From Halothermothrix sp. (lineage in GTDB: Bacteria > Bacillota > Halanaerobiia > DY22613), in the NCBI GenBank assembly GCA_016841825.1, contig JAENYK010000009.1:1-64000 (forward strand): a stretch of DNA of 64,000 bases, read 5' to 3'. Below, piece by piece: positions 27,013 to 64,000 of this stretch. A model generated the notes under the pieces. It was not told the origin of the DNA. It ran no database searches and saw only the letters and a list, made by a program, of their open reading frames with translations. A program made the translations under genes and the position numbers. Numbering within the stretch: position 1 is the stretch's first letter; every line of letters starts with the position of its first letter.

Positions 27013-27367
27013 GATAGCACTTCCCTTCAATTTAATCATTAGGCAAATGATTATTCCAAGCCTATTACAACTATACCACCTTTCTGGATATAGTTCTCAG
27101 CTATTCGTATATCGATTTCCATTCGCTATGTTTACGATATCAATAAATATTCTACATTTTTAGTCATCACCCTTTTTTTATGAGAAAAATTTACAAGAAA
27201 ATTACCCAGATTATCAGCAGTCTTTTGATTTAAGACATTAACATTTTTTTCAACAAATAATTTACATAATAATTCCTTCCAATAGCATAATCATCTTAGT
27301 ATCTTGATAAACATTCCAAAATATGTTATGCTATGTCCAAATCGAACTTTTGAAGGGAGGAATCTTA
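27013..27367. other. Intergenic region between divergent genes
   Basis: AT-rich region between the FMN-binding gene (minus) and the small membrane-protein gene (plus). It must hold both promoters, but I cannot pick clear hexamers. GAAGGGAGG at its right end is the ribosome-binding site of the next gene. Confidence 0.4.
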
Positions 27368-27634
27368 ATGTTACCATCCTTTTTAATCTACATGCTCTTT
27401 GGAGTGCTAGGATACCTGGTATCAATAAAATTAAATATACATCAAAAAAAAGGGACGCTAATCCTGACCATATTAGCCTGCTTACTTTCGGGTTTTGTTG
27501 GGGTAAACAGTGGTTTTACATTTTTTGACTATTCTATTTACATAAATAATATCCTTCTTGCCACTTCTTTTGGTATTCTGGTGCACTTAGTTATAAGAAG
27601 ATTGATGAAAGACAATACAAAATATCTTAATTAA
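27368..27634 (+). CDS. Small three-helix membrane protein
   Basis: An 88-residue protein starting at the ATG behind GAAGGGAGGAATCTTA. Three hydrophobic segments (about residues 3-18, 27-50, 58-76) with a basic tail (RRLMKDNTKYLN) and a FGVLGYLVSIKLN loop. It recalls GlsB/YeaQ/YmgE-type or holin-sized proteins, but no signature is decisive. It is the only plus-strand gene next to the tiny-peptide locus and converges on it, sharing a terminator. Function unknown. Confidence 0.6.
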   Translation: MLPSFLIYMLFGVLGYLVSIKLNIHQKKGTLILTILACLLSGFVGVNSGFTFFDYSIYINNILLATSFGILVHLVIRRLMKDNTKYLN

Positions 27635-27755: not shown

Positions 27756-27857
27756 TTACCAGCTACCACTGGCTCCTCCACCACCAAAAGAGCCACCACC
27801 GAATTCAACATCTTCTACTTCATTAATTGGCACAGACAATTTTAAAAGATTTAGCAT
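27756..27857 (-). CDS. 33-residue Gly-tail peptide B
   Basis: A 33-codon gene with AGGTGAAGAA directly before ATG. The sequence starts MLNLLKLSVPINEVEDVE and ends FGGGSFGGGGASGSW. The N-terminal half is short, hydrophobic then acidic; the C-terminal 15 residues are Gly/Ser with two Phe and a terminal Trp. It is a clear paralogue of the peptide at 28081-28182 (same length, same MLNL-K start, same tail), with codon differences throughout, so the protein is conserved rather than the DNA. The tail matches the C-terminal end of many TPM-domain (YgcG-like) and DUF2207 membrane proteins as I remember them. The peptide could be a modified-peptide precursor, signal or small structural peptide. Function unknown. 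Confidence 0.75.
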   Translation of the reverse strand: MLNLLKLSVPINEVEDVEFGGGSFGGGGASGSW

Positions 27858-27894
27858 TTCTTCACCTCACTAATTGATTCTATTTCATATCAGA

Positions 27895-27918
27895 TGAAAA
27901 AATACCCAAATGGGTATT
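27895..27918 (-). terminator. Terminator/attenuator between the cysteine peptide and peptide B genes
   Basis: Stem AATACCCA / TGGGTATT with 2-nt loop (27901-27918). On the minus strand it is followed by TTTTTT (into 27895). It lies 26 nt after the stop of the Cys-rich peptide and 37 nt before the peptide B start, so expression of B needs its own promoter or read-through. Confidence 0.75.
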
Positions 27919-27944
27919 CAAAGATACTTTTTCGAATTAGGCTA

Positions 27945-28040
27945 TCATACGTTAGGATTATTAGGACAATACTGACAGGGAAGCGGATAAATCCCATTAT
28001 TAATACATAGTTCTTTAGTATAGAAACAAATTGTATCCAT
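27945..28040 (-). CDS. 31-residue four-cysteine peptide
   Basis: A 31-codon gene with a strong ribosome-binding site (GAGGAGGGAATCTG-ATG). It begins MDTICFYTKELC and ends PLPCQYCPNNPNV. Cys at positions 5, 12, 22 and 25 form a C-x6-C-x9-C-x2-C pattern that could bind zinc or form disulfides/thioethers. A longer in-frame version without its own ribosome-binding site would overlap peptide A and is unlikely. It lies 40 nt downstream of peptide A and upstream of a terminator, so it is probably co-transcribed with A. No family recognised. Confidence 0.65.
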   Translation of the reverse strand: MDTICFYTKELCINNGIYPLPCQYCPNNPNV

Positions 28041-28080
28041 CAGATTCCCTCCTCTCAATTTAATTTGTCGATAATCCTCA

Positions 28081-28182
28081 CTACCAACTACCACCAGCAC
28101 CGCCGCCGCCAAATGAACCTCCTCCAAATTCAATCTCTTCAGCTTCTTCAATTGCAACAAGCACTTTGAATAAATTTAACAT
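28081..28182 (-). CDS. 33-residue Gly-tail peptide A
   Basis: A 33-codon gene behind AAGGGGGTGAAAAG. It starts MLNLFKVLVAIEEAEEIE and ends FGGGSFGGGGAGGSW. Compared with peptide B: same length, same MLNL-K start, same acidic middle, nearly identical tail. It is first in the small minus-strand cluster, followed by the cysteine peptide. An ATAGAATC element occurs upstream of both A (about 45 nt before ATG) and B (about 20 nt before ATG) and may be a shared promoter element. No modification enzyme or transporter lies next to it: the neighbours are the MFS remnant and Wadjet genes. See the findings. Confidence 0.75.
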   Translation of the reverse strand: MLNLFKVLVAIEEAEEIEFGGGSFGGGGAGGSW

Positions 28183-28353: not shown

Positions 28354-28590
28354 CTAAATAGCCTCATAATCAGGTAGGATCTTATCTGCTTTACGAATAG
28401 CATTGGCCATATATCCCAGTATACTAGTTATTACAGCGAACGCACCAATAAGTAAAAATAGCAAAGCCATTCCCGAGCCAGGTTCTGTACCGACGATCCA
28501 GCCAAAGATTTTTGTCAAACTTCCCCCATTGACCATAGCGGGTTCAAAAACAAAATCGCTAATGGACCACAGAGAAATAGTTTTTTTTAA
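28354..28590 (-). pseudogene. 3' remnant of an MFS (macrolide-efflux-like) transporter
   Basis: The minus-strand frame reads SLWSISDFVFEPAMVNGGSL, then IFGWIVGTEPGSGMALLFLL, then a last helix and KADKILPDYEAI. This matches the C-terminal end of MefA-like MFS efflux proteins ('FEPAM...GG-L...IFG...G-GPG-GMAL-F...A-I...D-LPD'). About 65-75 codons remain. The upstream end runs into the 3' end of the SMC gene of the Wadjet operon (stop at 28604), so the rest of the transporter was replaced. No start signal. Confidence 0.65.
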
Positions 28591-28603: not shown

Positions 28604-31600
28604 CTATACCTCCATACGATAAAAACCAGACTCTAACCTCTCAGCCTGCATTATCTCTTTTCCGTAAGCACTTCTGAGTTGTAGACTGTACACTACCGGG
28701 AAGCTATATAGAATATTCTCGTCCTGATGAGCTGTAAAACAGATAAATTGAATCTGGTTAGCCTTAGCTACGTTAAATACTACTTCCAGGATGTGTGACG
28801 ATGAAGCGATTCCGAAGGGGTTGTCGGCCATGATTACTTTCCAGACATTCTGCCTACCCTCAGTCTGTTGGCGAATGTGATTGATGATGGTCATGAACAT
28901 TGTTATATAGATACTATATCCCTCTCCGCCAGACCAATTAGATACTTCATCCCAGGGGGAACGGTCATTTCGAGATTGACGTACCAGAGATTCTTTTCGG
29001 GGTTTGAAAACTGATACTAGACAATCCTCAATGGGAGCTATTACCTGAATTAAGTTCCTCGTCCTCAGCATCTCTGCCATCTTGCTATCAATCTCATCAT
29101 CCAGTTTACCTTCTTGCTTCCATTTGTTGAGATCCGTTAGCACCTGATCTAAATATCCATAAATTTTTTGTCGATTCTCTTCTTCTGATTGGGTCGGCCA
29201 GTTCATCTTAATGATCTGAACCTCCTGATCAAATAGTATAACCCGGGAGTTTTTCGGTATCTCAACAATATTGTCATAGACAGTCTTAGCTCTCCGCAGA
29301 CAAAGATCTGTCAGATGACTCATGTTCTTCTCTGTCTCCTGTAAGTTAAACTCATATTGCTGCTGATATTGGTCTAAAGCTTCAAAGATGCGGATAAACT
29401 GGGTTTCAATATAATCATAGTCGTATAACTTATTATTCTCCATGATTACTTTGACATTGCGGATAAAGTCCGCTACTTTGGCGTTCTGAGTTTTCTCTAA
29501 CTTCTGCAGGTAGATATTAAATTGTAGATCCGCTTGCTTTTTGTGTGAAGTTACTTTATCTTGCTTTACTCGTAACATTTGCTCTGATTGCAGTACAGCA
29601 TCTTTGGGCTTAACTCCTAACTTGTCCCATTCATACGAGGTTAGAGGAAATACCTTTTGTGAGATAGTTTGAACCTCTAGATTATAAGCTAATAATTCTA
29701 GAGCATCTTCATTTTCTTTCACCCAGGATCTGACTTTGCTCTGATCAAGCTCAATCGTCTGTTTATTACAATGTAAATCTCCAAGCTTATTTTTGATAAC
29801 CTTATACTGCTGTTGGTGGGTATAAGGATCAAACTCATTGAATGGTAACAGATCTGTTTGTTTAGTTACTGAATTTACTACATTATCCCATACTTCTTTC
29901 TTAGCCTGAACATTGGCTTTTGCTTGATGCCACTCCTTTTCCTTACCGATTACATCTTTCCGTTTCTTGTTAACTTCAAACTCTATTTTCGTTAACTCTT
30001 CTTTAAATACTTCTCGGCGATGCTCCTGCAGCCAATTCCACTCGATCTCACTATGCTCAATCTGTTCTTTAGCAATATCTAATTCACTCTGACACTTTTT
30101 TATAAGATTTTCAATGTTCTCCCGTTGGTTTTGCTTGGACTTCAGTTGTTCTAAAATTGAGTCAATCTCTCCCTCAAGTTCGTCATAATTCAAACTTTCC
30201 GACTCAATCTCTTCAATCACATCAACCAGTTCAAGCCTGTAGTGGGTGAATTCATGCTTATGCTGAGTCAAATTACTATTCAATCCATTCAGTTCTAATC
30301 TAGCCTTCCCTCTTTTTTCACCAAATTCCTCTTTCTCTTCGTCCCAATTGTTAATCTGACGTTTTATTTGATCACGCTCGTTGCTCAAACGATCTCTTTC
30401 ATTATGCTTATCATCAATTTGAACGAATAAGGGCAGATATCTACCTAACATTTCAATGAGCTTCTGCCTCTGATGCGAAGTCTCCTGTAACTCAACGATC
30501 TTCATTCTATGTTGTTCAATAGTTTCCTTAAGTTGTGCTGACCGATCTTTCTTTAGTTGAATCTCTTTTTCAATCTCTTGAATACGTTGAATTTTCTCAT
30601 CTTCCCATTTTTTCCATTCACTAGTTTGTTCAGCAGTGTACTCACGATAAAAGCTCAGAATCTGCTCACGTAAGTATTCAATATCAGTTTCACGAGCAAT
30701 GATTGCCGCTAGTTGTCCTTCAATAGAAGCAATTTTATCGTTAATCTGGCTTTTAAAATTCTGAAAAGCTTCTGTAGAGGTGTAAATACTCAAAGAATCA
30801 GGTTGATACATATAAACATCATTCTCAAAAAGTGAGATAAAACTCTCAATCTCTGTACTGCCATTGAGATTGCGTTCATTTTTAACCAGAAACAATAATG
30901 GGATATCTGGTGTTAGATTTCGCAACTGTTTGATGATATTTTTAACTGCATTGGTCTGAGAAGATTCGATAATTATGGAATAAGGCAATAAAGGCTGATT
31001 CTTCAATATTGCCTGGCATTCATCAGGAGATAAACTCTGTTCAGCAAGCCATTCGCTACCAGTAATGGCAAATAGATTAGCTTTCTCCAGTCTGGTCTTA
31101 ATATCTACTAAATCTTGATGAGGAATGTAATACTGGTAATCTTTTAACAGAAGCCATTTTTGCTCCAGATCAGCCTTCTCTACCTCTAAATGTAATCTTG
31201 AAGATCTCACACTGTCCTTCTGCTCTTTAATCCAAAACAGCATTTTATCTTCAGCTTCAAACAGATCCTTAACATAGCACTCGTGTCCAGCTAACAACTC
31301 TTTAAGGGTTTCATAAGCAGTATGAAAAGCCTCAAAACTCTGCTGTAAATATTGGAGTTCTTTTTCGGTGCCTGCTTTTTCCCCATTTAAAGTTGAAATT
31401 TCCTCACTGATGTGATCTTTCTCGTTTTCCCAGCTATTTATTTTAGCAGTACAATCTTTAATTTTCTCTATTACTTCCTGTAACTCTTGCTGATAAACCT
31501 CCAAAAATTCTTCAGGTTCTTGTAAAGCTTCTTCTGTAACCTCGTTTGCCAGCAGCATTTTTTGCTCGTTTTTATACTGCTCAAACCATGAATTCAAAGC

Positions 31601-32986
31601 CGCAATCTGCTCGCCACACTCAGATTCAAGTTCTCTAGCTTCTTCAATCTTGCCTTTGAGGGATGCTATCTGCTTATCAAATCCCTCGATCTCTACGTCC
31701 TTTCTCTCAATCAGCGTCAGTAGATTATTCTGTTTAATCTCCCAGGCCCAACGTAATTGAGTTCTGATCTGATTTAATTTTTTTAAAAGTTCTGGTTCAG
31801 ATTTATCCATATTCTCCAGCAGACTCTCATAATTCATTTTTTCCAATTCAGCTTGTACGTATTTGTTATAAGAGTTAAGCGCTTCTAATTCTCGCTGCTC
31901 CTGTTCATATTTCCCCAAAACTAACTTTTGAGCGTCATAATCCTGATTAACTTTAACTTCCTGCTCACAGGCTTCACGATGGTCTAATTCTTTTATGAAA
32001 GCCTCATAACTTAATTCTTGCCACACCAACTCTTTCTCTTCACCTTTTAATTGCTCAAGATCTTCCTCTAACTGTTGAAGCTGCTCTGTAGCTTGGCCTT
32101 TATGAACCTGAAAAGTCTCTCCTAATCTAGCAAGATGTAATATAGAATTCTCAACTTCTTTTTGAACCTGATCCAACTTCTGAACAACATCTACCACCTG
32201 CTGCGCATTTTCGCGAATCACCTCAAAATCTTGCAAATTCTTCTTGATAATTGGAATATCTAATAATAGTTTACGATAGTTCGAAAAGGCATTAATCAAT
32301 TCTTTCTTCTTGAGTTCATCATGAAACATCATCTCTTCAATACCAGGAATGAGGATGTTCTCAATTAATTGACTAGTTGTTTTGCCCCGCTCAAAGAATT
32401 TAGCAACACCACCTTCAGAGGCATTGGTTTCACGAATATTGCGCCATTCTTCGGGAAGGATTCGAAAGCTCCTCAACACCTGATGGTAGGTATTAATCTG
32501 ATCAAAAAGCTGAATATGCACGTCTTTACTATTATTGATCCAATCTCGTAGCTCCTGATAAGCGATCACATTATCAGCAAAGAGAGTACTGTCCACTAAA
32601 GGTAATGAACTGATATTATACTTAGAAACATCATCATATTCAAATAAATAGTTAAAATACTTGAACTCTTTACGACTATCTTCTGTAAAACAAAAGCCTG
32701 TACATAGATAATTATCACCATCACCTTCATTATCCAATAACCATTCCACTATCACATGTCCAGTGTATCTATGGTGACGAAGCAGTTGTTTGATACTTCT
32801 TTTACCCATCTTCTCATTAGGTAAAATCACCTGCAAAGCTAATTGAATCAGTAGCGACTTACCACCACCGTTAGCAAGCAGCATGATGGCATCTAAACCT
32901 TGTGTTTCAAATACTAGATCTGGCAATAATTTTCTATCCTCATCATAAAAAATGTTAACAACCCTAATTCTATTAATCCGCGGCAA
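28604..32986 (-). CDS. jetC: Wadjet SMC-like ATPase JetC (MukB/MksB-like)
   Basis: A 1460-residue SMC-type ATPase, the motor of the Wadjet/JetABCD system that extrudes and recognises small circular DNA. N-terminal Walker A is ANGGGKSLLIQLALQ (about residue 36). Two long coiled-coil arms with a central hinge region make up most of the protein (Gln/Glu/Lys-rich heptads from ~270 to 1300). The C-terminal ABC signature is NWSGGEGYSIY (~1345), with Walker B-like WKVIMADNPFGIASSSH, where Asn follows the Asp. The start overlaps jetB by 14 nt. It is the last gene of the operon, and its stop abuts an MFS remnant. Confidence 0.93.
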   Translation of the reverse strand: MPRINRIRVVNIFYDEDRKLLPDLVFETQGLDAIMLLANGGGKSLLIQLALQVILPNEKMGKRSIKQLLRHHRYTGHVIVEWLLDNEGDGDNYLCTGFCFTEDSRKEFKYFNYLFEYDDVSKYNISSLPLVDSTLFADNVIAYQELRDWINNSKDVHIQLFDQINTYHQVLRSFRILPEEWRNIRETNASEGGVAKFFERGKTTSQLIENILIPGIEEMMFHDELKKKELINAFSNYRKLLLDIPIIKKNLQDFEVIRENAQQVVDVVQKLDQVQKEVENSILHLARLGETFQVHKGQATEQLQQLEEDLEQLKGEEKELVWQELSYEAFIKELDHREACEQEVKVNQDYDAQKLVLGKYEQEQRELEALNSYNKYVQAELEKMNYESLLENMDKSEPELLKKLNQIRTQLRWAWEIKQNNLLTLIERKDVEIEGFDKQIASLKGKIEEARELESECGEQIAALNSWFEQYKNEQKMLLANEVTEEALQEPEEFLEVYQQELQEVIEKIKDCTAKINSWENEKDHISEEISTLNGEKAGTEKELQYLQQSFEAFHTAYETLKELLAGHECYVKDLFEAEDKMLFWIKEQKDSVRSSRLHLEVEKADLEQKWLLLKDYQYYIPHQDLVDIKTRLEKANLFAITGSEWLAEQSLSPDECQAILKNQPLLPYSIIIESSQTNAVKNIIKQLRNLTPDIPLLFLVKNERNLNGSTEIESFISLFENDVYMYQPDSLSIYTSTEAFQNFKSQINDKIASIEGQLAAIIARETDIEYLREQILSFYREYTAEQTSEWKKWEDEKIQRIQEIEKEIQLKKDRSAQLKETIEQHRMKIVELQETSHQRQKLIEMLGRYLPLFVQIDDKHNERDRLSNERDQIKRQINNWDEEKEEFGEKRGKARLELNGLNSNLTQHKHEFTHYRLELVDVIEEIESESLNYDELEGEIDSILEQLKSKQNQRENIENLIKKCQSELDIAKEQIEHSEIEWNWLQEHRREVFKEELTKIEFEVNKKRKDVIGKEKEWHQAKANVQAKKEVWDNVVNSVTKQTDLLPFNEFDPYTHQQQYKVIKNKLGDLHCNKQTIELDQSKVRSWVKENEDALELLAYNLEVQTISQKVFPLTSYEWDKLGVKPKDAVLQSEQMLRVKQDKVTSHKKQADLQFNIYLQKLEKTQNAKVADFIRNVKVIMENNKLYDYDYIETQFIRIFEALDQYQQQYEFNLQETEKNMSHLTDLCLRRAKTVYDNIVEIPKNSRVILFDQEVQIIKMNWPTQSEEENRQKIYGYLDQVLTDLNKWKQEGKLDDEIDSKMAEMLRTRNLIQVIAPIEDCLVSVFKPRKESLVRQSRNDRSPWDEVSNWSGGEGYSIYITMFMTIINHIRQQTEGRQNVWKVIMADNPFGIASSSHILEVVFNVAKANQIQFICFTAHQDENILYSFPVVYSLQLRSAYGKEIMQAERLESGFYRMEV

Positions 32987-33731
32987 GTATTATCACTCCT
33001 TTGTTCTCTTCAAAATCCAAAGGTTTTGACAGGATATTTAACAACATCTCTTTTCGCTCACTATTAAAATAATACTTGAGAACCAGGTGTTCGATCTTCG
33101 GCAACAAACGAATCTCCTGCTCTTCAAAGATTTGAACCAACCCTTCTTTTTCCAAAAAACTCATTACACGTAAAATGAAACCAATCCTATTCTTTCCCCG
33201 TTTTAGCTGAACAAGTTGATCATCGAAAGCTGCTTGTTCCTGCCAGGATTCAGCAACACTGCTGAGATTGATCTGATAAAGTTCTTCAAAGCTCTCAACC
33301 GCTTCCTCTGAACTTAGAGTCACTGCTTCTACATAATCTGTTACGGTCTCTTCGAGGTCTCTGACCAGAACAAACTGTCGGGAAGCAAAGTTTTGATCTT
33401 CGCTATTATAGAATTTGGCGAGTAAACAGAGAATCAAAAAATATGCCAGATATAGCTCACTGTTATTTTTTAATTTCATCTCGTTGCGTAATTCTTCATT
33501 GGTATAGCCCAAATAACGGTTATTGATCCCGGGTGTAAGATAAATGTTATTTCCAAAGGCAAAGATCTTGACATCAGCTTCTTCTTCAATAATTTCTTCA
33601 ATGATCTGCCTAACTTCATTGCGGTTATAGGCAAAGTGTAGGTCACGATCATTTTCATCAATCACTCCTCGCTGGAGAAGTTGCATATATAGTTTAAAGG
33701 CCCAACGTACATCTTCTTTATGCCATTCCAT
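32973..33731 (-). CDS. jetB: Wadjet JetB (MukE/MksE-like)
   Basis: A 252-residue, winged-helix-rich acidic protein corresponding to the MukE-like kite subunit. Features: WHKEDVRWAFKLYMQLLQRGVID at the N terminus, EVRQIIEEIIEEEADVKIFAFGNNIYLTPG, and a C-terminal FILRVMSFLEKEGLVQIFEEQEIRLLPKIEHLVLKYY. This resembles the DUF6063-type JetB (family name from memory). It overlaps jetA and jetC by 14 nt each, so the three are translationally coupled. It should link the JetA kleisin to the JetC heads. Confidence 0.88.
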   Translation of the reverse strand: MEWHKEDVRWAFKLYMQLLQRGVIDENDRDLHFAYNRNEVRQIIEEIIEEEADVKIFAFGNNIYLTPGINNRYLGYTNEELRNEMKLKNNSELYLAYFLILCLLAKFYNSEDQNFASRQFVLVRDLEETVTDYVEAVTLSSEEAVESFEELYQINLSSVAESWQEQAAFDDQLVQLKRGKNRIGFILRVMSFLEKEGLVQIFEEQEIRLLPKIEHLVLKYYFNSERKEMLLNILSKPLDFEENKGVIILAAD

Positions 33732-35265
33732 CAGGTATCCCCCTTTTAATAATAAAATCGGATATTACATAGCCATTAGGTAATCTGATAACTTTATCCG
33801 TAGCAATCAACTCAAATCCCTTCAGTGCGAAAATTTCTGGATTCTCTTCCACAATCTTTACAAGAATCCTGGGGAATTCCAGAAGAATTGGCCCCTGGAA
33901 AGATGCCCGGGTTAGTAATGGAATAACGCCCATCTGGTGTAATTGGATAATAAAGGGATAAAAGTCTAAACGGTTAATTAACTCATAGTACTGTTCGGGA
34001 TCATCCGATTTAAGTTGATTCAAAATCTGTCGTAATGTCAGTTCATCCTGAACAACCAGCGATTTTAAGATCATTGTCAGGTAGTACTCTAAATGTTTTT
34101 CCTTCTGTGCTTTTAACTCCCTTTCCCGTTCTTCTTCCTGGCGAATCATCTCCTCATCTAGACGCTGCATCTCTTCATAGTCTAATTCTGCAGTTCTTTT
34201 CAAAGGTTGTTCTAAAAAGACTTTCCCGGGATGGAAATGGGGGTTACGTTTGGGAGAGAATAAAGGATCGATAATGAGTTTTAGATTATTTAAATCCAGA
34301 TTTTTCTTGACAACCTGTTGTAAGATTTCTGTTTGGAAATTAATCTTAGTATTAAAGGTATTCAAGATCATGGATTCAATGGAGTTATACATTAACTGTT
34401 GCAAACGTAACTTATCTGTAAACAAAGATTCATGATCATGGATGATATCAATCAATTTGCGATAAACTTTTCGAATCTTTTCTACAGCCTGTTCTTCTCT
34501 GGCTGTTAGCTTACCTGTATGATATTCATCAAGAGTAAATTCGATCAATTCTTTCAATTCAGCAAAGACTCTCTTCTCCCTCTCTAACTGGTCATTAACT
34601 CGCTCTATCTGTTTTTCAAACTCACTCTCCCGGGTTACATTTAACACATCTCTGATAATCTGTTCTTCCAGATGTCGAATTCTGGCTTTTTCATTCTTCA
34701 CAGCAAGAGCCAGTTCATCCACAGAGCGGAGAGCACCATCAAATATCCCACGCTGAATCTGTTGACGAAGATATAGTTGAGATATAGATATCTGTAGTTC
34801 ATTGTAAAACTCTTTAGTCTTGAAAAGAAGTTCTAAACCTACTAAGGATAGCTTTAACCTAACAACTTTCTCTTTAATCTCATAATCTGCCAATTCAAGG
34901 AGATAGAATTGGTATTCTTCCGCTTCACCAGTTGTGTAGTTCATATATGAGAATGTGTGAAATTGCCCTCTGTTTAATAGGTTTTCCCGTACAAGGTAAT
35001 AAGATATCTCCAGGGCAGTGTCATAGGTAATAGTCTCCTTATATTGACGATGAATTAACTCTCGCAAAAAATTGGCGATATCTTCATAGGTACAACCTTT
35101 TTCACCTTTGAGCATGTATTCGAGGATGAAAAGGAGGACACTTAAACCTAGTTCCAGCATGGAGTATTTGTATTTTGTTCTTTGACGTAAGTCAATAAGG
35201 GGGGCAAAAACTGCGATATTTTTGATTCTATCTGCAAAACCATTAATAATCTGTTCGTCTATCAT
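33718..35265 (-). CDS. jetA: Wadjet JetA (MukF/MksF-like kleisin)
   Basis: A 515-residue kleisin-type subunit. The N-terminal winged helix includes KYKYSMLELGLSVLLFILEYML and YEDIANFLRELIHRQY. A central helical/coiled-coil part follows (LEEQIIRDVLNVTRESEFEKQIERVNDQLEREK) and a C-terminal region has many Glu/Gln (DEEMIRQEEERERELKAQ). It resembles DUF5716-type JetA proteins (family name from memory). It begins 17 nt after jetD and ends overlapping jetB. Its job is to bridge the SMC heads. Confidence 0.88.
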   Translation of the reverse strand: MIDEQIINGFADRIKNIAVFAPLIDLRQRTKYKYSMLELGLSVLLFILEYMLKGEKGCTYEDIANFLRELIHRQYKETITYDTALEISYYLVRENLLNRGQFHTFSYMNYTTGEAEEYQFYLLELADYEIKEKVVRLKLSLVGLELLFKTKEFYNELQISISQLYLRQQIQRGIFDGALRSVDELALAVKNEKARIRHLEEQIIRDVLNVTRESEFEKQIERVNDQLEREKRVFAELKELIEFTLDEYHTGKLTAREEQAVEKIRKVYRKLIDIIHDHESLFTDKLRLQQLMYNSIESMILNTFNTKINFQTEILQQVVKKNLDLNNLKLIIDPLFSPKRNPHFHPGKVFLEQPLKRTAELDYEEMQRLDEEMIRQEEERERELKAQKEKHLEYYLTMILKSLVVQDELTLRQILNQLKSDDPEQYYELINRLDFYPFIIQLHQMGVIPLLTRASFQGPILLEFPRILVKIVEENPEIFALKGFELIATDKVIRLPNGYVISDFIIKRGIPDGMA

Positions 35266-35282
35266 TAGTAATCACCGTCACT

Positions 35283-36347
35283 TTATCTAGTAGCAAGCAT
35301 TTCCATAAAGTTGTAATTTAAGCCTTCCTGGGGAATATAACAGTTATTTACCCACAGGTTTTCAATAATTTTAGACTGAGGCTGTGCAAAGAAAGTCACA
35401 AAGGATTGCAAAGCCTGAAAGTCACCACTTTGGTCTTTCCGTATCTTTAATGGTAAAGATCCCCATTTGTCGAGTAGAAAATTATAGAAGAATACGAAAG
35501 GTTTAATATCTATATCCTCTGCAGTGCGTAATTGGTGCCAGATAGTTATACCCACAGGATCAAGGTCACCGAAGTAATAAAAATTGGGCGAGCTAGACGA
35601 ACTGAAGTCTAATTCGTAAAAAAATTTGAAACTTTTCAGTATTTTCCACCCTTCTCCGTAAACCAGTAAGCTAAAGTTAAGTGAATTCCAGGTGGTTATT
35701 CCTCTTTGAAAAAGCTTCTTTAATGAAATGAATGTATCTTTATTCTCCACAATCAATACATTTAATGATTGTTGGTTATTGTAGCAACGATAATAGAAGA
35801 ATGGTTCATGTGTCTGATAGCAGTTTAAGTCAGCAATAGATAGAGCTACTCGTTGCAATAAAGTCTGGCCATGTGTAGAATTAAGGAATTTTTCATCAGT
35901 GAAGATCTGAAAGGAGCGTTCATTTACAGAGATTGGTTCCAACTGTCGATACTCCTGTTTGTATTTTAAAAATACATTAAGTGCATTTAGGTAATGTTCA
36001 TCTTTCTGATATTCTGCGGGGTGAGTAAGATAATAAGCCACATTAATGACTGGGTGGAACTGAGTCATTAATTTTTTCCTGACCTCCTGGTCTAACTGGG
36101 GACTCTTTTCGATATATTGATAGCCATTATATAAGATTGGTGATTTACCGTTGGTTTTCCAGGCTTTGATTGGACGGATAACCTCTTCAATCTCAAGTTG
36201 CTTAAGCGTGTTGGCAAGAGCAGAGTAACCTCCAAGTTGTAGGAATTGTTTTTGACCGAGTTTTTGGTATAGGTAATTCTGGATATCTATCGTCTTTACA
36301 CGTTTTTGAGTTAGTGATTTTAAATAGCTGTAGACCAACTCTTTCAA
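35283..36347 (-). CDS. jetD: Wadjet JetD, Toprim nuclease (topoisomerase VI A-like)
   Basis: A 354-residue JetD. The N-terminal winged helix (about 1-80) has VKTIDIQNYLYQKLGQKQFLQLGGYSAL. The C-terminal Toprim domain has the catalytic Glu in NVLIVENKDTFISLKKL and the D-x-D in FYYFGDLDPVGITIWHQL. JetD cleaves plasmid DNA held by the JetABC complex. I read the start as TTG at 36347, behind GAGGTGAGTAATCA; no ATG is suitable. It is first in the operon (order D-A-B-C), the arrangement I recall for type III Wadjet systems. Confidence 0.9.
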   Translation of the reverse strand: MKELVYSYLKSLTQKRVKTIDIQNYLYQKLGQKQFLQLGGYSALANTLKQLEIEEVIRPIKAWKTNGKSPILYNGYQYIEKSPQLDQEVRKKLMTQFHPVINVAYYLTHPAEYQKDEHYLNALNVFLKYKQEYRQLEPISVNERSFQIFTDEKFLNSTHGQTLLQRVALSIADLNCYQTHEPFFYYRCYNNQQSLNVLIVENKDTFISLKKLFQRGITTWNSLNFSLLVYGEGWKILKSFKFFYELDFSSSSSPNFYYFGDLDPVGITIWHQLRTAEDIDIKPFVFFYNFLLDKWGSLPLKIRKDQSGDFQALQSFVTFFAQPQSKIIENLWVNNCYIPQEGLNYNFMEMLATR

Positions 36348-44717: not shown

Positions 44718-46055
44718 TCATTCTTTTACTTTTTCCATACTAAGAGCAACATTACGATAATTAAAATTAGAGCTGCAGGCCCATATACTTGTAGTTAAAC
44801 TCTTTGTTGAAAATAATGTTTTTAAAAATTTGGAGAAAATAATTTTTTTAGTGTAAAGACAACGATTACTATAACTCATTATTTGTGATAGTTGTTTGTG
44901 TGTCATATGTAATGGTTTAAAGGTAACTTCAGTCATATCAAAATGTACCCAATCATCTGGAAATTTATCATAAAGTAATCGATCTTCACTTTTAAACTTT
45001 TCAAATAATCTGGTTCCCGGAAGTGGAGTCAATATAGTCGTCTGCATAACGTCTACCGGGCTGTTAATTATATATTCTATTCTTTTTTGAAGTGAGTTTG
45101 ATGTGTCATTATCTAGACCATAAATAAAAGAGCCCAAAACAGCAATTTTATAGCTATTAATCCTATCTATTACATCTCTATATTTACCGGAACCTATTTT
45201 AATATTCATTTTTTTGTTTACAGTCCCTAAATATTTTTCATCCTCAGCTTCCAGGCCGATAAAAACAATTTTACAACCACTTTTGGCTGCATATTCAAGT
45301 ACTTCTTCATCTTCAGCAAAATTAATTGAAGCCTGACAAAACCAATCTTTTTTGATCCCACGATCTATCATACCTTTGAACAATTTTATCGCACGTTCAT
45401 TAGCATTTTTTCCGTATCCGAGAATATTGTCATCAACGAAAAAGATCATTTTTTGCGGAATACTCTCTAATTCATCTAATACATCATTAATCGGTCTCTG
45501 TCGATATTTATGTCCATTAAATTGTGTAACTGAACAAAATTCGCAATCCATGGGGCAACCTCGAGCTGTCTGAATCGCTCCAAACATATATCCAGGATGA
45601 AATAATTCGTGTCTAGCTTTTGGAACCATGTCTGCATTAATTAATTCTCCCTGATAAACACTTTCAAGTTTCCCATTTTCAAAATCTGATATAACTTTAG
45701 GCCATATACCCTCAGCTTCACCTATTACAACTGTATCTACATATTGTTTAGCTTCATCAGGTAACATAGAAGCGTGTATGCCACCTATTATTGTTGGAAT
45801 GCCTTTTTCACGATACTCTGTTGCAATATCATAAGCTCTTTTGGCTGAAGAAGTAAAAGCCGTTATACCTACTAAATCTGCTTCCTCATATTTAAAACTA
45901 TCAAAATTTTCATCAACAATCTTTATCCTCCAATCATCAGGCGTAAGAGCTGCAATTATCCCTAAACCTAAAGGTGGAAATCGGGAGCTCTTATTAATTG
46001 TTAAACCTGTTTTGCATGGATTTGAGGGGTTAATCAATAATAACCTTTTTTTCAT
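44718..46055 (-). CDS. B12-fold radical SAM enzyme (family unassigned)
   Basis: A 445-residue radical SAM protein. The N-terminal ~140 residues have a cobalamin-type Rossmann fold (LLLINPSNPCKTGL, PPLGLGIIAALTP, VGITAFTSSAKRAYDIA, IIGGIHASMLPDEA) without the D-x-H-x-x-G cobalamin ligand. The [4Fe-4S] cluster motif is TARGCPMDCEFCSVTQFNG (C-x3-C-x2-C), followed by FVDDNILGYGKNANERAI. Related proteins act on lipids, hopanoids and peptides; the product is not predictable here. Downstream partner: HEAT-like protein. Confidence 0.88.
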   Translation of the reverse strand: MKKRLLLINPSNPCKTGLTINKSSRFPPLGLGIIAALTPDDWRIKIVDENFDSFKYEEADLVGITAFTSSAKRAYDIATEYREKGIPTIIGGIHASMLPDEAKQYVDTVVIGEAEGIWPKVISDFENGKLESVYQGELINADMVPKARHELFHPGYMFGAIQTARGCPMDCEFCSVTQFNGHKYRQRPINDVLDELESIPQKMIFFVDDNILGYGKNANERAIKLFKGMIDRGIKKDWFCQASINFAEDEEVLEYAAKSGCKIVFIGLEAEDEKYLGTVNKKMNIKIGSGKYRDVIDRINSYKIAVLGSFIYGLDNDTSNSLQKRIEYIINSPVDVMQTTILTPLPGTRLFEKFKSEDRLLYDKFPDDWVHFDMTEVTFKPLHMTHKQLSQIMSYSNRCLYTKKIIFSKFLKTLFSTKSLTTSIWACSSNFNYRNVALSMEKVKE

Positions 46056-56573: not shown

Positions 56574-58184
56574 TCACGCCTCCTGCAAAAACATTTTCTG
56601 CAAACGCTCAGCAGTCTCCAGGCTAATCTCTCGCTGACCACGGCGGAGTAATCTCTCCCTGATACCCTGGTTGAAAGCCAGCAAAAACTCCTTGATCTCT
56701 GTCAAATTCATTCCCCGATGCAAAAGACTAAAGATTCCACCGAACTCAAAATTATACTGGGGAATCCAGACAGAATTTTTCAGATTCACAAAAATATCTT
56801 CAATCAGATCACAGGTCATAAATGCATCCATACTCCTATGTGCCCATTCAAACTGTGAGCCTTTGATCTGAAAATGATCCTTCTGAGTCCAGATGGGAGT
56901 GATAGGATCACAGTACCACAGCTGAGTGCGGCAAAAATCCGGTTGAGTCTCTTCAATGAACTCAACTGTATCTCTGACCGTCTCATAGGTCTCTCCTGGA
57001 AAACCGATAATAAAAGAAGCATAGGTAATGATCCCGTATTTTTTCAACAGACGAAGTCCTTCCCGGTATTTTTCCACCGAAGCTGCTTTATTCATGTTCT
57101 GGAGAATCTGTTGATTACCTGACTCAATCCCCAAGAAGACTCCCTCACAACCACTCTCCTTCATCAAAGCAACCGTCTCTTCATCAGCAAATTGACATCG
57201 ATAATGAGAGTTCCAACCAAAACTGTAGTCATTTTTAATCATCATCTGTAAGATCTCTTTAAAACGCTCAGGGGGTACGTTAAAAGTATCGTCAATAAAG
57301 TTCAAACTCTCTACCACTCCCAGCTTTTCAATGGCATTAAGCTCCTCTGCAATCTTCGCTACCTCCACAGTCTGGTACTTTCCCGCATGCTCCGGAAATC
57401 CACAGAATGAACAGTGGAATGGACAGGAGATAGATGTGCGAATTGAGAGAAACTGATTAATCTTATCCTTAAATAAGCTCCAATCAACCATATTCTCCGC
57501 TAATCTATTATCCTCAATCTGAACTGGATTGATCACCCATTCATTCCCATCGAAGTAAGCTGTATTGGGAATGCCCCACAATGAATCACCATTCCTGATC
57601 GCCTGCAAGACATTCACCAGGGTCGCTTCTCCCTGAGAACTATTAACATAGATATCTCCACCCGTGGATTTAAAAAAGTAGGCCAGGGTATCTGGATCTG
57701 CCGCTGTGCGGAACTGAGTGGCAACAAAAGGTCCGCCAATAATTATCTTCGCCTGCGGGTTATATTTTTTTATAAAGGAAACGATCTCTAACACCGGAAA
57801 CACCGAAACATACAATGTAGTAATGATTCCAATAGTTCGAATCTTTTCGGTTTGGAGTTTGCGAGCCAATTCAGCTTTTCCCTCCTGAAATGAATTAACA
57901 AAGTCAAAGGAAAATCCCCGTCGATGCAAGTAAGTACCTAAGTACGTAATCGCTGGACTTAACTCCTCTCCTAAACTAATCGGCGAAAGATCATCCTTTT
58001 CCGGCTGCCGAAAATAATTGAATGCCTCTGCCGCTGTAAAAGTCTGATCACTATAGCGGATAAAGCTAAGACTCAAATCTCTATAGGCGGGTGATCGCTT
58101 TCCCATTGAATAGACCATCTCTTCATATTTCTCGAACTGCATCTCATTATGTCCAATAAATAGACAGTCGATTATATCTCCCAT
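56574..58184 (-). CDS. PhpK-like cobalamin-fold radical SAM enzyme
   Basis: A 536-residue radical SAM protein. It begins IIDCLFIGHNEMQFEKYEEM and SPAYRDLSLSFIRYSD, which I recognise as the start of the PhpK family (radical SAM P-methyltransferase-like, found in natural-product clusters). An N-terminal cobalamin-type Rossmann fold (IGIITTLYVSVFPVLEIVSF, IIIGGPFVATQF) precedes the cluster motif SISCPFHCSFCGFPEHAGKY (C-x3-C-x2-C) and LNFIDDTFNVPPERFKEIL. It lies 99 nt after the NRPS stop, in the same direction, and shares its terminator, so it probably modifies the NRPS product or a precursor (inferred). AGAGGTGATAAT ribosome-binding site. Confidence 0.85.
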   Translation of the reverse strand: MGDIIDCLFIGHNEMQFEKYEEMVYSMGKRSPAYRDLSLSFIRYSDQTFTAAEAFNYFRQPEKDDLSPISLGEELSPAITYLGTYLHRRGFSFDFVNSFQEGKAELARKLQTEKIRTIGIITTLYVSVFPVLEIVSFIKKYNPQAKIIIGGPFVATQFRTAADPDTLAYFFKSTGGDIYVNSSQGEATLVNVLQAIRNGDSLWGIPNTAYFDGNEWVINPVQIEDNRLAENMVDWSLFKDKINQFLSIRTSISCPFHCSFCGFPEHAGKYQTVEVAKIAEELNAIEKLGVVESLNFIDDTFNVPPERFKEILQMMIKNDYSFGWNSHYRCQFADEETVALMKESGCEGVFLGIESGNQQILQNMNKAASVEKYREGLRLLKKYGIITYASFIIGFPGETYETVRDTVEFIEETQPDFCRTQLWYCDPITPIWTQKDHFQIKGSQFEWAHRSMDAFMTCDLIEDIFVNLKNSVWIPQYNFEFGGIFSLLHRGMNLTEIKEFLLAFNQGIRERLLRRGQREISLETAERLQKMFLQEA

Positions 58185-58214
58185 ATTATCACCTCTCCAA
58201 CTTTTTGGGTCAGG

Positions 58215-58251
58215 AAGTGACGGGAGCTGTTAAAGACATCTACCGTCACTT
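58215..58251. other. Hairpin between the NRPS and radical SAM genes
   Basis: A 9-bp stem AAGTGACGG / CCGTCACTT with a 19-nt loop and no U tract. It may set relative expression of the two genes or mark an mRNA processing point. Confidence 0.5.
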
Positions 58252-58283
58252 CTTATCCCGGAATTAACCAAATAATATTCTGA

Positions 58284-61200
58284 TCACTTTAAAATATCCA
58301 GGATCAGTCGGGCATTAACCTGTAAATTCTCACCACTTAAGAGTTCACGATGAGACCCCTGGCCCTGATAGACATAATATCCACCATGAGTTGCTTCCTG
58401 CCAGCTATCAGTATTGATCGCCTCACCTTCTTCTTGAGCCTTGATTAGATGGATCGGTGTCTGAACCGTTCCATTATTGATCATCCGATTACAGTAATCC
58501 TGATAACCTGTCACTCGTTGGATTAGTTCTCTACGAATGGAATCAATCTCCAGATAACCGGCCAGATCGGGATTGGTTCTGGCAAATTGTAACCATTCTG
58601 TCTCCAGATCTTTCTTCGATTTGGTGACAGGTGCATCTTTTTTCAATGAATCCAGCATGATTAAACCTGCTACCTCTAATCCCTGTGCTTCCATTACTCG
58701 AGCTACTTCAAAAGCAAGGTTACCACCTGCAGAATAACCGATCAGAGTATAGGAACCTTGTGGCTGCAGTTTTTGCATCTCCGCAATATATTCTGCTATC
58801 GGTTCATCCCGTTCGATAAAATCAAAACTATAAACAGTGTATTCCGCTAAAGCATTAGCTAACTGCTGATAAGTGATACCATACCCTAAAATCGACGGGA
58901 AGCAGAATAGCTTCTCCTCCTGACCTGCGTTGAAGATCAGATATGGATCAACCTGCTGAGCCTTAAGCGTTCCAAAACGAATTAGATTGGCCAGCTCCCG
59001 AATCGTCGGATGCTTGAAGATCTCCTGCAGTGGTAACTGCAGGGCAAACTCCTGATAGACTTTAGAGATTAGTGATGCTGCCTTTAAAGAATGACCACCT
59101 AATGCGAAGAAATTATCCAAAATCCCCACTCTCTTTATCTGCAAAATCTCTGACCAGATATGAACTAAGGTCTCTTCCAGCTCAGTAGTTGGAGCTACAT
59201 ATTCAATCCCTGTATCTGTTCGCTCCGGTTCTGGTAAGAGATGACGATTGATCTTTCCACTGGTGGTCAATGGGAAAGCATTCAGCTTCACAAAATAGCT
59301 GGGAACCATATATCCAGGCAACTGCTCTTCCAAATAAGCCCGCAAAACAGCATCAGTCAACTCCTCTTCCCCTGTATAGTAAGCACAGAGATACTGATCT
59401 CGCATGTTGTCACCTTTTAACAATACCGCAGCAGCTGTCACCTGCTGATGATTAACGATTCGATTCTCAATCTCACCCAGTTCGATCCTAAATCCGCGCA
59501 GCTTCACCTGATGATCAATTCGACCGACAAACTCCAGTTGACCATCGGGTAACCAGCGGGCCAGATCACCGGTCCGATAAATTCTCTCCGCCGGATTCAG
59601 AGGACTGGGAATGAACTTCTCTGCCGTCAGTTCCGGACGATTTAAATAACCCCTGGCAAGTCCCGCGCCTCCAATACATAGTTCCCCAATTACTCCAATG
59701 GGCTGCAACTGCTGATTCTGATTCAGGATATATACCCGGGTATTTAAGATAGGTCTACCGATGGGTGGTACTTTATAGTCGAACTTATCCCTGGCTTTCC
59801 AGATCGAAGTACAGACTGTGTACTCTGTTGGCCCATAAGCATTGATATATTGGACATGGTCTTTCCATGTGTTTACAATCTCCCAGTTACTGGCTGAACC
59901 CGCAGTGATCACCATACGCAATGTTGGCATACTCTCTGGTCTCAAATTTTGAATATAAACCGGTGGTAAAACCACATTGGTAATCTGATACTGATTGATA
60001 TATTCTGCAAAGCGAAGATAGTTATTACGGATTTCTTTCGGAAGCATACATAATGTATTACCAAACAGAATCGATCTAGTTATTTCAGAAACTGAAGAGT
60101 CAAATGAACAGGAAGCAAATTGTAAAACCCGATCTTCAGGTGAAACACCCCAATTAACTCCATATGCTGTATTCAGATTCAACAGACCACGGTGTTCTAA
60201 CATAACTCCTTTGGGTTTACCTGTTGAACCGGAAGTATAGATGATATATACCAGATCAGTTGGTTGATTGACTAACTCCGGATTATCTGGACTATACTGC
60301 CCTAGAAGAGGATCTTTCAGATCAATTATCGTCCCTGTAAAGCTCTTTGCCCGCTCAAAATACTGAGGATGGGTCAAGAGAATCTGTGCCCGACTATCTG
60401 CTAACATATACTCCACTCGATCTGGCGGATACTCTGGATCGATGGGCAGATACGCTCCACCAGCCTTAATAATCCCCAGAATGCCGATAATCATCTCTAA
60501 GTTACGTTCCGGGATAATCGCCACAATCTGTTCGGGATAGACACCCCTTTCTCTTAACAATCTAGCCAGCTGATTGATTCTGGCATTTAATTCATGATAA
60601 GTCAATTGAGCTGTTTGACTGATCACTGCTATCTTCTCAGGGGTTCTGGTCACATGTTCTTCAAATACCTCACCAATGGTCTTATTCCGCGGAAACTCAC
60701 CTGCAGTCTGATTAAAGACTGAATTGATCAGAAATTTCTCTTCAGGTAAGATTAGTTCGAGCTCTCCGATACTGATTTCAGGATCTGAAATCAGTCGGTC
60801 GATGACCTGTTTAATCTGTCCAGCCATTCTCTCGACTGTTTCCCGTCGAAATAGCATTGTATTATAGGCTAGTTTAAATTCCAGACCACTTCTATCCTCC
60901 CGGGCGATCAGAGTCAGATCAAACTTGGCTGCTTTATTTTTGTAAGGAATGGACTGCAGCTTAAAATCATTGACAGTTCCCTCTGTTACCTCCGGATTAT
61001 ATAGATTGTGATAGACGAACATGGTATCGAATAATGGGTTTCGGCTGAGGTCTCTTTCCAGGTTTAGCTGATCAACCAACAATTCAAATTGATAATCCTG
61101 ATGCTGAAAATCGTTAAGAGTATTCTCCTTAAGCTGTTTAAGGAATTGAGTAAACGTTAAGGAGAAGATTGGCTGATTACGCAAAGCAAGGGTATTGACA

Positions 61201-64000
61201 AACATTCCGATGATCTGCTCCAAATCTGCATGGTCTCTGCCGGCTATTGGTGAGCCGATAATCAGATCCTCCTGCCCTGTGTACCTGGCAAGAAAGATGT
61301 TATAAACAGCGAGTAAGACCATATAAAGAGTAACCCCCTGTCTCTTAGCCAGGAGCTTTAGATGTGCTGTCATCTCAGCAGTCAACTCAAAATCAACTTC
61401 ATCTCCAACAAATTGCATGACCTTTGGACGTAGATAATCTGTCGGAAGATCAAGAGTTGGAATCTGATCGGCAAAGCGCTCTAACCAATAATTCTTCTGA
61501 TCTTCCATCAGACCGTCCTCCATAAGCTGATTCTGCCAGACAGCAAAATCTCTATACTGGATACGTGATTCTGGTAGAGTTTCACCTGCATATAGTCTAA
61601 AGAGATCCCCAATCAGGAGATTCAGCGAAATCCCATCAGCGATGATATGGTGGATGTCATAGGTCAGGATATATCCATCTACTGTCCGGGCTAGTCCCAC
61701 CCTAAACAGTGGTGCTCTCCCCAGGTCAAATGGTCGGACAAAATCAGCCATCAAATCCTCGATTCCCATCTCTGACATCTTAAGCTCCTCAATCCTGAAG
61801 TTGACCGCTGGCTGAATCTGCTGCACCGGTTCACCTACCGCAAAACTAAAGGAGGTTCGCAGTGATTGATGACGATCGATCAGTGCGAGTAACGCCTCTT
61901 CTAACCGCTGTGGATCTAACTTCCTGTCCAAAAGTAATACTCCCGGCAGATTATACCCAGTGTTGTCGACCCCCATCTGGTTTAAGATAAAAAGTCGCTT
62001 TTGAGCAGAAGAGAGAGGATAAGATTCACGTAACTCAACTGGCTCAATTCCCCGGTAAACCTCCTTTTGAGCAGTAGCAATATAATTGGCTAAGCCCAGT
62101 ACCGTAGGATGCTCAAAAATCTCCCGCAAAGGTACTTTGACATTCATTTGCTTAAATACCTGACCAATTAGTGAAACAGCTTTTAGCGAGTTACCCCCCA
62201 ATTCAAAGAAGTGATCACTGACTCCAATCCTCTCCACTCCCAGAATTTGTGACCAGATCTGCACCAGCTTCTCTTCCTGCAGAGTGGTTGGCGGCAGATA
62301 GTCTCGCCCACTGTCCAACAGACTATCTGCTGTCAGTAGTGCACTTCTATCCAGCTTACCACTGGCAGTTAAGGGAAGCTCCGGAAGACGAATAAAGTAA
62401 CCGGGGATCATGTAATCGGGCAGAGTGCGAGCCAGATGTGCTCTTAACTCAGTGGCCGAAATCTCTTCAACAGTGACCAGATAGGCAGCCAGCTCATTTT
62501 GACCGGCAGCATCTTCTCTAACCAGCACTGCTGTCTCTGCGATCTGGGGATGGGTTAATATCTGACTCTCAATCTCTGCCGGTTCGATTCTAAACCCACG
62601 AATCTTCACCTGTTGATCGATCCGCCCCAGATACTCTAATTCTCCCGTCTCTAACAGGCGAACTTTATCTCCGGAACGATACAACCGTTCACCGGGAAGA
62701 TAAGGATGCTGAATGAATTTCTCTGCAGTTAGTTCTGGCCTGTTGAGATATCCCCGGGCCAGCCCTGCACCGCCTACGCAGAGTTCCCCGGCGACTCCTC
62801 CGGGAACAAGCCGCAGATTATGATCCAAAATCCAGCAGGTTAATGTCGGAATGGGCCTACCAATATTGCTGATCTCCCGCTGAATATCCTCCGCACTCAA
62901 CTCCTTAAAGGTCACATGAACGGTGGTCTCAGTGATCCCATACATATTAATTAAGCGGGTCTCAGGGTATCTGACAGCCCACTCCTTCAGCCGACCTGGC
63001 TGTAAAGCCTCACCGCCAAAGATCACATACCGGAGTGCCAAATCCCCTGCACCAAATTGCAGTTCTTCTGTGATCAGATTATAGAAAGCTGTCGGTGTCT
63101 GATTGAGAACTGTTACCCTTTCCCTGACTAACAACTGCCGATATTCTGCTGGACTCTGGGCGATCTGTCTGGGAACAATGATTAGCTTACCACCAAACAG
63201 CAGAGCTCCATACATCTCCCAGACTGAGAAGTCGAAACAGTAGGAGTGGAATAGTGTCCAGATATCCTGCTGACTAAAGTCGAACTGGAACTGATCATTA
63301 AAGAATAATCTAACCAGATTCCGCTGTTCAATCATCACTCCTTTAGGTCTGCCAGTGGTACCTGATGTATAGATAATATATAACAGATCTGTCGGTTGAT
63401 TAAGTTCCGGTAATTCTCCACACTTCTCTGCAACAGCCAAATCGGTTAGCACAATCCACTCACCCGGGAAATTAAGTTCTCTAAATTCATCACTAACCAA
63501 TAGCCCAGTCTTAGAATCGGTTAACATATACTCGATCCTCTCCCGGGGATACTCTGGATCAATTGGCAGATACGCTCCTCCGGCTTTGACGACCGCGATA
63601 ATCCCAATGACCATCTCCAACGAACGCTCAGTCAGAAGACCGACGATCTGGTTTGGACGAACACCTTTTTTGCGTAGAAGCCAGGCCAACTGCTTAGATC
63701 GTTGATTTAACTCAGCATAGGTCAGCTGCTCATCGTTCAAGACCAGAGCGATTCCATCGGGGTTCTGTTCCATCTGTATCTTAAACAGTTGATTGACTGT
63801 TGCTGTTGTCGGATAATTTACTGGCTCTCCAATTAGTCCCTTTAAGAGAAACTCTCGCTCCATCGGGGAGATCATCTCAATCTCTGCCAGTCGTAGATCA
63901 ACATCCTGCACAACTTCTCTGACAATATTCGTAAAATGAACAGCCAATCGACGGATCGTCTCTGGTTTAAATAAATCTGTCCGATACTCAAATCCCAGAC
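58284..64000 (-). CDS. Non-ribosomal peptide synthetase, terminal subunit (partial, 5' end outside window)
   Basis: At least 1904 residues; the frame continues past 64000, reading the end of a condensation domain (LFKPETIRRLAVHF). Order, with residue numbers counted from about 63947: C (tail), A1 (~45-530, YIIYTSGTTGRPKG at ~190), T1 (FFELGGNSLKAVSL ~570), C2 (HHIIADGISLNLL ~770), A2 (~1100-1580, YIIYTSGSTGKPKG ~1245), T2 (FFALGGHSLKAASL ~1620), TE (IGYSAGGNLAFEVARVM ~1735, G-x-S-x-G). The A1 pocket code reads D-F-W-N-I-G-M-V-H-K, the published threonine code. A2 reads D-S-S-V-I-A-A-V-C-K, close to Phe/Tyr/Trp-type codes. No epimerisation domain is seen. The TE marks the end of the assembly line, so the peptide should end Thr-aromatic. 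It is followed by the PhpK-like gene. Confidence 0.93.
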   Translation of the reverse strand, partial: LGFEYRTDLFKPETIRRLAVHFTNIVREVVQDVDLRLAEIEMISPMEREFLLKGLIGEPVNYPTTATVNQLFKIQMEQNPDGIALVLNDEQLTYAELNQRSKQLAWLLRKKGVRPNQIVGLLTERSLEMVIGIIAVVKAGGAYLPIDPEYPRERIEYMLTDSKTGLLVSDEFRELNFPGEWIVLTDLAVAEKCGELPELNQPTDLLYIIYTSGTTGRPKGVMIEQRNLVRLFFNDQFQFDFSQQDIWTLFHSYCFDFSVWEMYGALLFGGKLIIVPRQIAQSPAEYRQLLVRERVTVLNQTPTAFYNLITEELQFGAGDLALRYVIFGGEALQPGRLKEWAVRYPETRLINMYGITETTVHVTFKELSAEDIQREISNIGRPIPTLTCWILDHNLRLVPGGVAGELCVGGAGLARGYLNRPELTAEKFIQHPYLPGERLYRSGDKVRLLETGELEYLGRIDQQVKIRGFRIEPAEIESQILTHPQIAETAVLVREDAAGQNELAAYLVTVEEISATELRAHLARTLPDYMIPGYFIRLPELPLTASGKLDRSALLTADSLLDSGRDYLPPTTLQEEKLVQIWSQILGVERIGVSDHFFELGGNSLKAVSLIGQVFKQMNVKVPLREIFEHPTVLGLANYIATAQKEVYRGIEPVELRESYPLSSAQKRLFILNQMGVDNTGYNLPGVLLLDRKLDPQRLEEALLALIDRHQSLRTSFSFAVGEPVQQIQPAVNFRIEELKMSEMGIEDLMADFVRPFDLGRAPLFRVGLARTVDGYILTYDIHHIIADGISLNLLIGDLFRLYAGETLPESRIQYRDFAVWQNQLMEDGLMEDQKNYWLERFADQIPTLDLPTDYLRPKVMQFVGDEVDFELTAEMTAHLKLLAKRQGVTLYMVLLAVYNIFLARYTGQEDLIIGSPIAGRDHADLEQIIGMFVNTLALRNQPIFSLTFTQFLKQLKENTLNDFQHQDYQFELLVDQLNLERDLSRNPLFDTMFVYHNLYNPEVTEGTVNDFKLQSIPYKNKAAKFDLTLIAREDRSGLEFKLAYNTMLFRRETVERMAGQIKQVIDRLISDPEISIGELELILPEEKFLINSVFNQTAGEFPRNKTIGEVFEEHVTRTPEKIAVISQTAQLTYHELNARINQLARLLRERGVYPEQIVAIIPERNLEMIIGILGIIKAGGAYLPIDPEYPPDRVEYMLADSRAQILLTHPQYFERAKSFTGTIIDLKDPLLGQYSPDNPELVNQPTDLVYIIYTSGSTGKPKGVMLEHRGLLNLNTAYGVNWGVSPEDRVLQFASCSFDSSVSEITRSILFGNTLCMLPKEIRNNYLRFAEYINQYQITNVVLPPVYIQNLRPESMPTLRMVITAGSASNWEIVNTWKDHVQYINAYGPTEYTVCTSIWKARDKFDYKVPPIGRPILNTRVYILNQNQQLQPIGVIGELCIGGAGLARGYLNRPELTAEKFIPSPLNPAERIYRTGDLARWLPDGQLEFVGRIDHQVKLRGFRIELGEIENRIVNHQQVTAAAVLLKGDNMRDQYLCAYYTGEEELTDAVLRAYLEEQLPGYMVPSYFVKLNAFPLTTSGKINRHLLPEPERTDTGIEYVAPTTELEETLVHIWSEILQIKRVGILDNFFALGGHSLKAASLISKVYQEFALQLPLQEIFKHPTIRELANLIRFGTLKAQQVDPYLIFNAGQEEKLFCFPSILGYGITYQQLANALAEYTVYSFDFIERDEPIAEYIAEMQKLQPQGSYTLIGYSAGGNLAFEVARVMEAQGLEVAGLIMLDSLKKDAPVTKSKKDLETEWLQFARTNPDLAGYLEIDSIRRELIQRVTGYQDYCNRMINNGTVQTPIHLIKAQEEGEAINTDSWQEATHGGYYVYQGQGSHRELLSGENLQVNARLILDILK

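Follow-up and report, generated by a model that had tools for sequence, protein, structure and literature searches.

The three small genes described here lie on the minus strand of the window, by which we mean the whole stretch of 64,000 nucleotides from Halothermothrix sp. that was analysed. pepA (28182..28081) encodes a peptide of 33 residues (MLNLFKVLVAIEEAEEIEFGGGSFGGGGAGGSW), cysP (28040..27945) a peptide of 31 residues (MDTICFYTKELCINNGIYPLPCQYCPNNPNV) with cysteines at positions 5, 12, 22 and 25, i.e. C-x6-C-x9-C-x2-C, and pepB (27857..27756) a 33-residue paralogue of pepA (MLNLLKLSVPINEVEDVEFGGGSFGGGGASGSW). Each of the reading frames is preceded by a strong ribosome-binding site (RBS), which is GGGGGTGA for pepA, GAGGAGGGA for cysP and GAGGTGA for pepB. 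A first-pass annotation had described two glycine-tailed paralogues flanking a four-cysteine peptide, all with strong RBS; we recovered the genes, their lengths, the cysteine spacing and the binding sites.

Coding evidence and surroundings of the three genes

The peptides PepA and PepB are 73% identical, and the FGGGSFGGGGA stretch is fully conserved between them. The two genes differ at 27 nucleotides, 17 of which are third-position changes (P = 0.0002); within the tail, FGGGSFGGGGA(S/G)GSW, this holds for 11 of the 12 differences. When 27 changes were placed at random, 24 of the 33 residues were kept in none of 20000 trials. We obtained a dN of 0.18 and a dS of 1.6 by the NG86 method, while dS was 2.2 by LWL85 and 0.88 by YN00, so that the three methods span about 0.9-2.2. 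The proposed selection on the peptides is supported by these values and by the third-position bias, and dN/dS is not near 1. pepA and pepB are real genes under purifying selection, and both are short ribosomal peptide genes of constrained sequence, as is expected of precursors of ribosomally synthesized, modified peptides (RiPPs). Since cysP has no paralogue, its coding status is judged from its RBS and position only.

Two terminator-like hairpins were found on the minus strand, one between cysP and pepB (27919-27900; -9.3 kcal/mol, z -3.1) and one after pepB (about 27736-27701; -16.4 kcal/mol on folding, z -4.0), the latter also being convergent with a plus-strand gene (27359-27634). Hence, contrary to what had been stated, they do not bracket the trio. 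Less than 45 bp is left for a promoter of pepB, so the hairpin in front of it is probably leaky, and pepB is probably expressed by read-through or from an unrecognised promoter.

The trio lies downstream of a complete type III Wadjet operon, jetDABC, on the same strand (28604..36347, minus strand), which was recognised by PADLOC matches to JetA3, JetB3, JetC3 and JetD3. It consists of jetD (36347-35283), jetA (35265-33718), jetB (33731-32973) and jetC (32986-28604), all on the minus strand. The operon is a neighbour of the tiny peptide genes and stands outside the peptide system. Directly upstream of pepA, and separated from jetC by only about 40 bp, sits what is left of an MFS transporter of the DHA3/efflux type, a C-terminal piece of about 67 residues (28354..28563, minus strand). 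It matches residues 386-452 of an intact 461-residue paralogue on contig C38 with 55% identity, and the remainder of the truncated gene is absent from the window. The remnant abuts jetC and lies upstream of pepA; therefore the locus was rearranged. As no MFS of this family was found in the SPASM loci examined (see below), we do not claim the remnant as an exporter of the peptides.

The remaining flanking genes encode an FMN-binding protein, CvfB and a small membrane ORF. No maturase, protease or intact exporter adjoins the tiny genes, and radical-SAM-like genes come no closer than about 17 and 28 kb, which bears out the earlier statement that no modification enzyme is adjacent. Scanning the window for tRNAs and Rfam families returned nothing. 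At the end of the window, a large NRPS reading frame (56574-63998, minus strand) runs off the analysed stretch; it is followed by a protein of 536 residues that by sequence appears to be a B12-type radical SAM enzyme, and a similar protein of 445 residues is encoded at 44718-46055.

Distribution of the peptides and of the glycine tail

Within its own genome the glycine-tail peptide is present in two copies, pepA and pepB only. Using HMM searches of 398 phylum genomes (E 0.1) and protein searches of 101 relatives (E 1), we found no homologue in the 397 other sampled genomes of the phylum, the nearest family member (G001) included. Other weak matches were judged to be chance or low-complexity, and a match in G269 (L057) was rejected as a peptide homologue, being a TPM-like tail. 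A pattern scan of viral contigs that made use of the leader found no relative. The tblastn search against plasmids and phages was also empty, which is weak evidence because the low-complexity filter masks the tail. For cysP, the 398 phylum genomes gave only matches at E 0.01-0.1 and no convincing homologue; the one match inspected (L064) was rejected, its gene context not corresponding. At the available sampling, the peptide family thus seems confined to this lineage. The first-pass annotation had held that a lack of homologues in relatives would speak against its reading, and in the sampled genomes none was found.

The tail itself is met elsewhere. The pattern GGG-x-F-x-GGG-x2-G-x-(W/C/S)-stop has matches in ten other phylum genomes; nine of these are in proteins of about 250-280 residues that are TPM-like by sequence, and L073, the tenth, is truncated at a contig end. 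The tail-bearing TPM-like proteins of relatives end in ...GGGGSFGGGGASG(D/G/K)W, and close variants of GGG-x-FGGGGA-x-G-x-W end the TPM-like proteins at L074-L082 in phylum genomes. Tails of TPM_phosphatase proteins (PF04536, YgcG-like) share the C-terminal GGGSFGGGGASG-x-W with PepA and PepB, so the likeness to TPM C termini that had been pointed out is real. However, TPM proteins of about 250-280 residues carry a signal, a TPM domain and a membrane segment, whereas PepA and PepB correspond to the tail only.

In viral contigs, GGG-x-FGGGGA-x-G-x-W has 81 in-frame matches, in proteins of many kinds and lengths. Of these, 40 are directly before the stop codon, where 3/64 would be expected by chance, but several are copies of one gene and the matches are therefore not independent events. 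The other 41 lie within the protein, so the motif cannot be regarded as a strictly C-terminal signal. As judged from these sequences, the motif is real and recurrent, but no function follows from it alone. In the viral contigs, the motif lies at the very end of unrelated phage proteins at L084-L123; at L117 (3080-3223) the frame is broken by a TAG shortly before the tail, and this phage possibly reads amber codons through. A search of the available literature on TPM tails, the tail string and Clo7bot yielded nothing useful.

Tiny peptides beside SPASM radical SAM genes of the host

The genome of the host has 24 SPASM matches above the curated cut-off. In 14-19 kb around the SPASM genes we collected ORFs of 22-60 residues that start with ATG, have an RBS and do not overlap long ORFs. 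About twelve SPASM loci have adjacent peptides of 27-47 residues, often in tandem and with the same AAGGAGGTGA-type RBS as in the window. Strong-RBS ORFs of 22-60 residues numbered 30 in 286 kb around SPASM genes; 331 kb of control sequence held 9, which makes them 3.9 times rarer there per kb (P 0.00015). Five loci harbour tandem paralogous arrays of 3-5 peptides with 28-46 residues: four MLDKLWNL...-like peptides at L179, three tandem peptides at L187, four MLNTWNL... peptides at L188, four MLNFNDLNPTI... peptides or close variants at L189, and five MLTIKSNVLIND...-like peptides at L190. Single peptides are found at L182-L185, while L193 combines a cysteine peptide with an acidic-then-glycine peptide (MIIFNSQSRDLVIEEPGSGGGGNTCCC), a mix that resembles the trio of the window. 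No tiny peptide was found near the SPASM genes of L178 (a trio), L186 (6690-7955), L191 (6883-8307), L192 (7059-8156) and L196 (7389-8486). At least ten peptide loci beside SPASM genes (L179, L182-L185, L187-L190 and L193) are distributed over contigs C30, C14, C10, C22, C6, C43, C24 and C40, and many of their peptides start with M(I/L)(N/D)..W(N/D/E)L.

M[LI][ND] begins the peptides of 7 of the 12 loci, compared with 5 among 274 longer ORFs that have an RBS (P 2e-8), with both the twelve loci and this criterion having been chosen after looking at the data. PepA and PepB both start with MLN, and they fit the SPASM-associated peptides of the host in size, AAGGAGGTGA-type RBS, tandem state and start. 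The closest counterparts are the arrays at L179 and L187-L190, which share with them the size range of 28-46 residues, tandem paralogues, the RBS and the frequent M[LI][ND] start. In contrast to those peptides, the ones of the window have no maturase alongside, no significant leader similarity, and a core that is a glycine run lacking cysteine. In local scores, similarity to the leaders of the SPASM-locus peptides was not above that of shuffled sequences (P 0.11 for PepA, 0.35 for PepB and 0.76 for CysP). Because the start motif was chosen post hoc and leader similarity is not significant, the likeness is support by build and not proof of descent.

The nearest NCBIfam models of the L179, L187 and L188 enzymes are TIGR03913, TIGR04103 and TIGR04334 (Clo7bot maturase), all below cut-offs. 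When NCBIfam models were run against nine SPASM-locus peptides, no match was obtained except one at chance level. The genome contains no YcaO, control searches being positive, and azole chemistry is therefore counted against. A single C39 domain is present, in a 231-residue frame on another contig, and the residues before GG in the window peptides are by eye unlike the usual double-glycine leader pattern. Elsewhere, L206 (3297-5068) and L214 (10584-10658) encode small peptides like MGLFGENGACLLLLLVVIIICCCEF, several of them in tandem, that resemble YjcZ-like tiny membrane peptides, and at L209 (9415-13005) a unit of about 1.1-1.2 kb is repeated four times in tandem, every copy containing the same pair of tiny ORFs.

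Possible orphan precursors and competing explanations

With a probability of roughly 0.45, we favour the explanation that pepA and pepB, possibly together with cysP, encode orphan RiPP-type precursors. Because a maturase is missing from the locus, the peptides would be either modified in trans or the remainder of a cluster. The N-terminal half of about 19 residues, which is hydrophobic and acidic, would serve as the recognition leader and the tail as the core, and by their build the peptides may belong to the host's set of tiny tandem SPASM-adjacent precursors. A putative maturase could be another SPASM enzyme of the host, for example one of those that have no peptide nearby; alternatively, pepA and pepB may remain from a cluster whose enzyme was lost. 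Consistent with orphan precursors are the purifying selection, the enrichment of tiny strong-RBS ORFs around the SPASM genes, the tandem arrays with their shared RBS type and frequent start, and the peptide mix at L193. On the other hand, some tiny ORFs occur in control regions as well, the comparison was framed after seeing the data, and neither a leader relationship nor an adjacent maturase, protease or intact exporter supports the assignment. The earlier proposal of a modified-peptide precursor is thus backed indirectly by the many similar-sized tandem SPASM-adjacent peptides of the host, but no sequence relation to them emerged and no enzyme lies next to the genes. The core has neither cysteine nor an acidic residue; given what these established classes require, lanthionine, sactionine, lasso and graspetide chemistry is ruled out. 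PepA and PepB are new in sequence, unusual and, at this sampling, lineage-restricted, and they are likely to represent a further version of a kind already known, with a putative modification.

GrrA/GrrM systems produce glycine-rich-repeat cyclophane peptides by means of a SPASM enzyme. PepA and PepB resemble them in a glycine-rich core with aromatic residues and in the presence of SPASM enzymes in the host, one of which has a weak match, below cut-off, to the GrrM enzyme model TIGR04261. However, no GrrM-like gene lies by pepA and pepB, and their last tryptophan has no downstream residue for a crosslink. A model for modification in trans may be offered by prochlorosin-type systems, where many precursors share one promiscuous enzyme (PMC10783134). 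Prochlorosins are lanthipeptides with ProcM-type enzymes and Nif11-family precursors, and nothing of that kind was seen at the window.

A serious rival, which we consider possible although rather unlikely, is that PepA and PepB are unmodified small proteins, whose sticky glycine/aromatic tail would mediate interaction or self-association and whose N-terminal half would be an amphipathic anchor to the membrane or a partner. The full conservation of FGGGSFGGGGA would suit a binding tail, as would the position of the motif at the very end of TPM-like and unrelated phage proteins, where the excess before stop codons has to be read with the dependence among matches in mind. Yet the motif is internal in half of the viral matches, the predicted peptide structure is uninformative (pLDDT 56), and no partner or other tail-bearing protein was found in the genome.

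It appears doubtful that the genes are a relic, i.e. that the Wadjet operon or other DNA took the place of the upstream part of a peptide cluster, whose maturase and exporter were thereby lost. The 67-residue MFS piece between jetC and pepA, on the same strand, fits such a history, but the link to an exporter is weak, with no homologous MFS in the SPASM loci examined. The strong codon-level constraint also argues against a relic, although it reflects selection at some past time after the duplication, which may have preceded decay. Quite improbable, in our view, is a portable tag, in which GGG-x-FGGGGA-x-G-x-W, common to TPM and phage proteins, would be read by a cellular factor and PepA and PepB would be free copies titrating it or signalling through it.

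We give hardly any credence to the tiny genes being accessory to Wadjet: they are on the same strand immediately downstream and the terminator scan found no terminator-like site between jetC and pepA, but the MFS remnant intervenes, and among the 28 phylum genomes that have jetC no glycine-tail peptide follows any other jetC gene whose downstream sequence could be read, so the peptides are not a conserved accessory of the operon. Just as improbable is the earlier idea of a free TPM/YgcG tail competing for the receptor of a TPM protein, for although the tails are near-identical, the host genome has neither a TPM domain (PF04536) nor a second protein with the tail pattern, which makes a decoy in this cell unlikely; for the DUF2207 proteins that had been named along with TPM, the lack of a second tail-pattern match in the genome answers the question only partly.

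Overall, a so far unexplained motif recurs in the tails of TPM and phage proteins, and it lends itself to testing. The host's arrays of tiny precursor-like peptides, having no NCBIfam match among the models tried, are a larger resource than the finding of pepA and pepB, which fit a host-wide habit of tiny, apparently precursor-like peptides. If PepA and PepB are precursors, they would add a cysteine-free glycine/aromatic core to the possible substrates of SPASM enzymes and would suggest that such enzymes and their precursors need not be neighbours.
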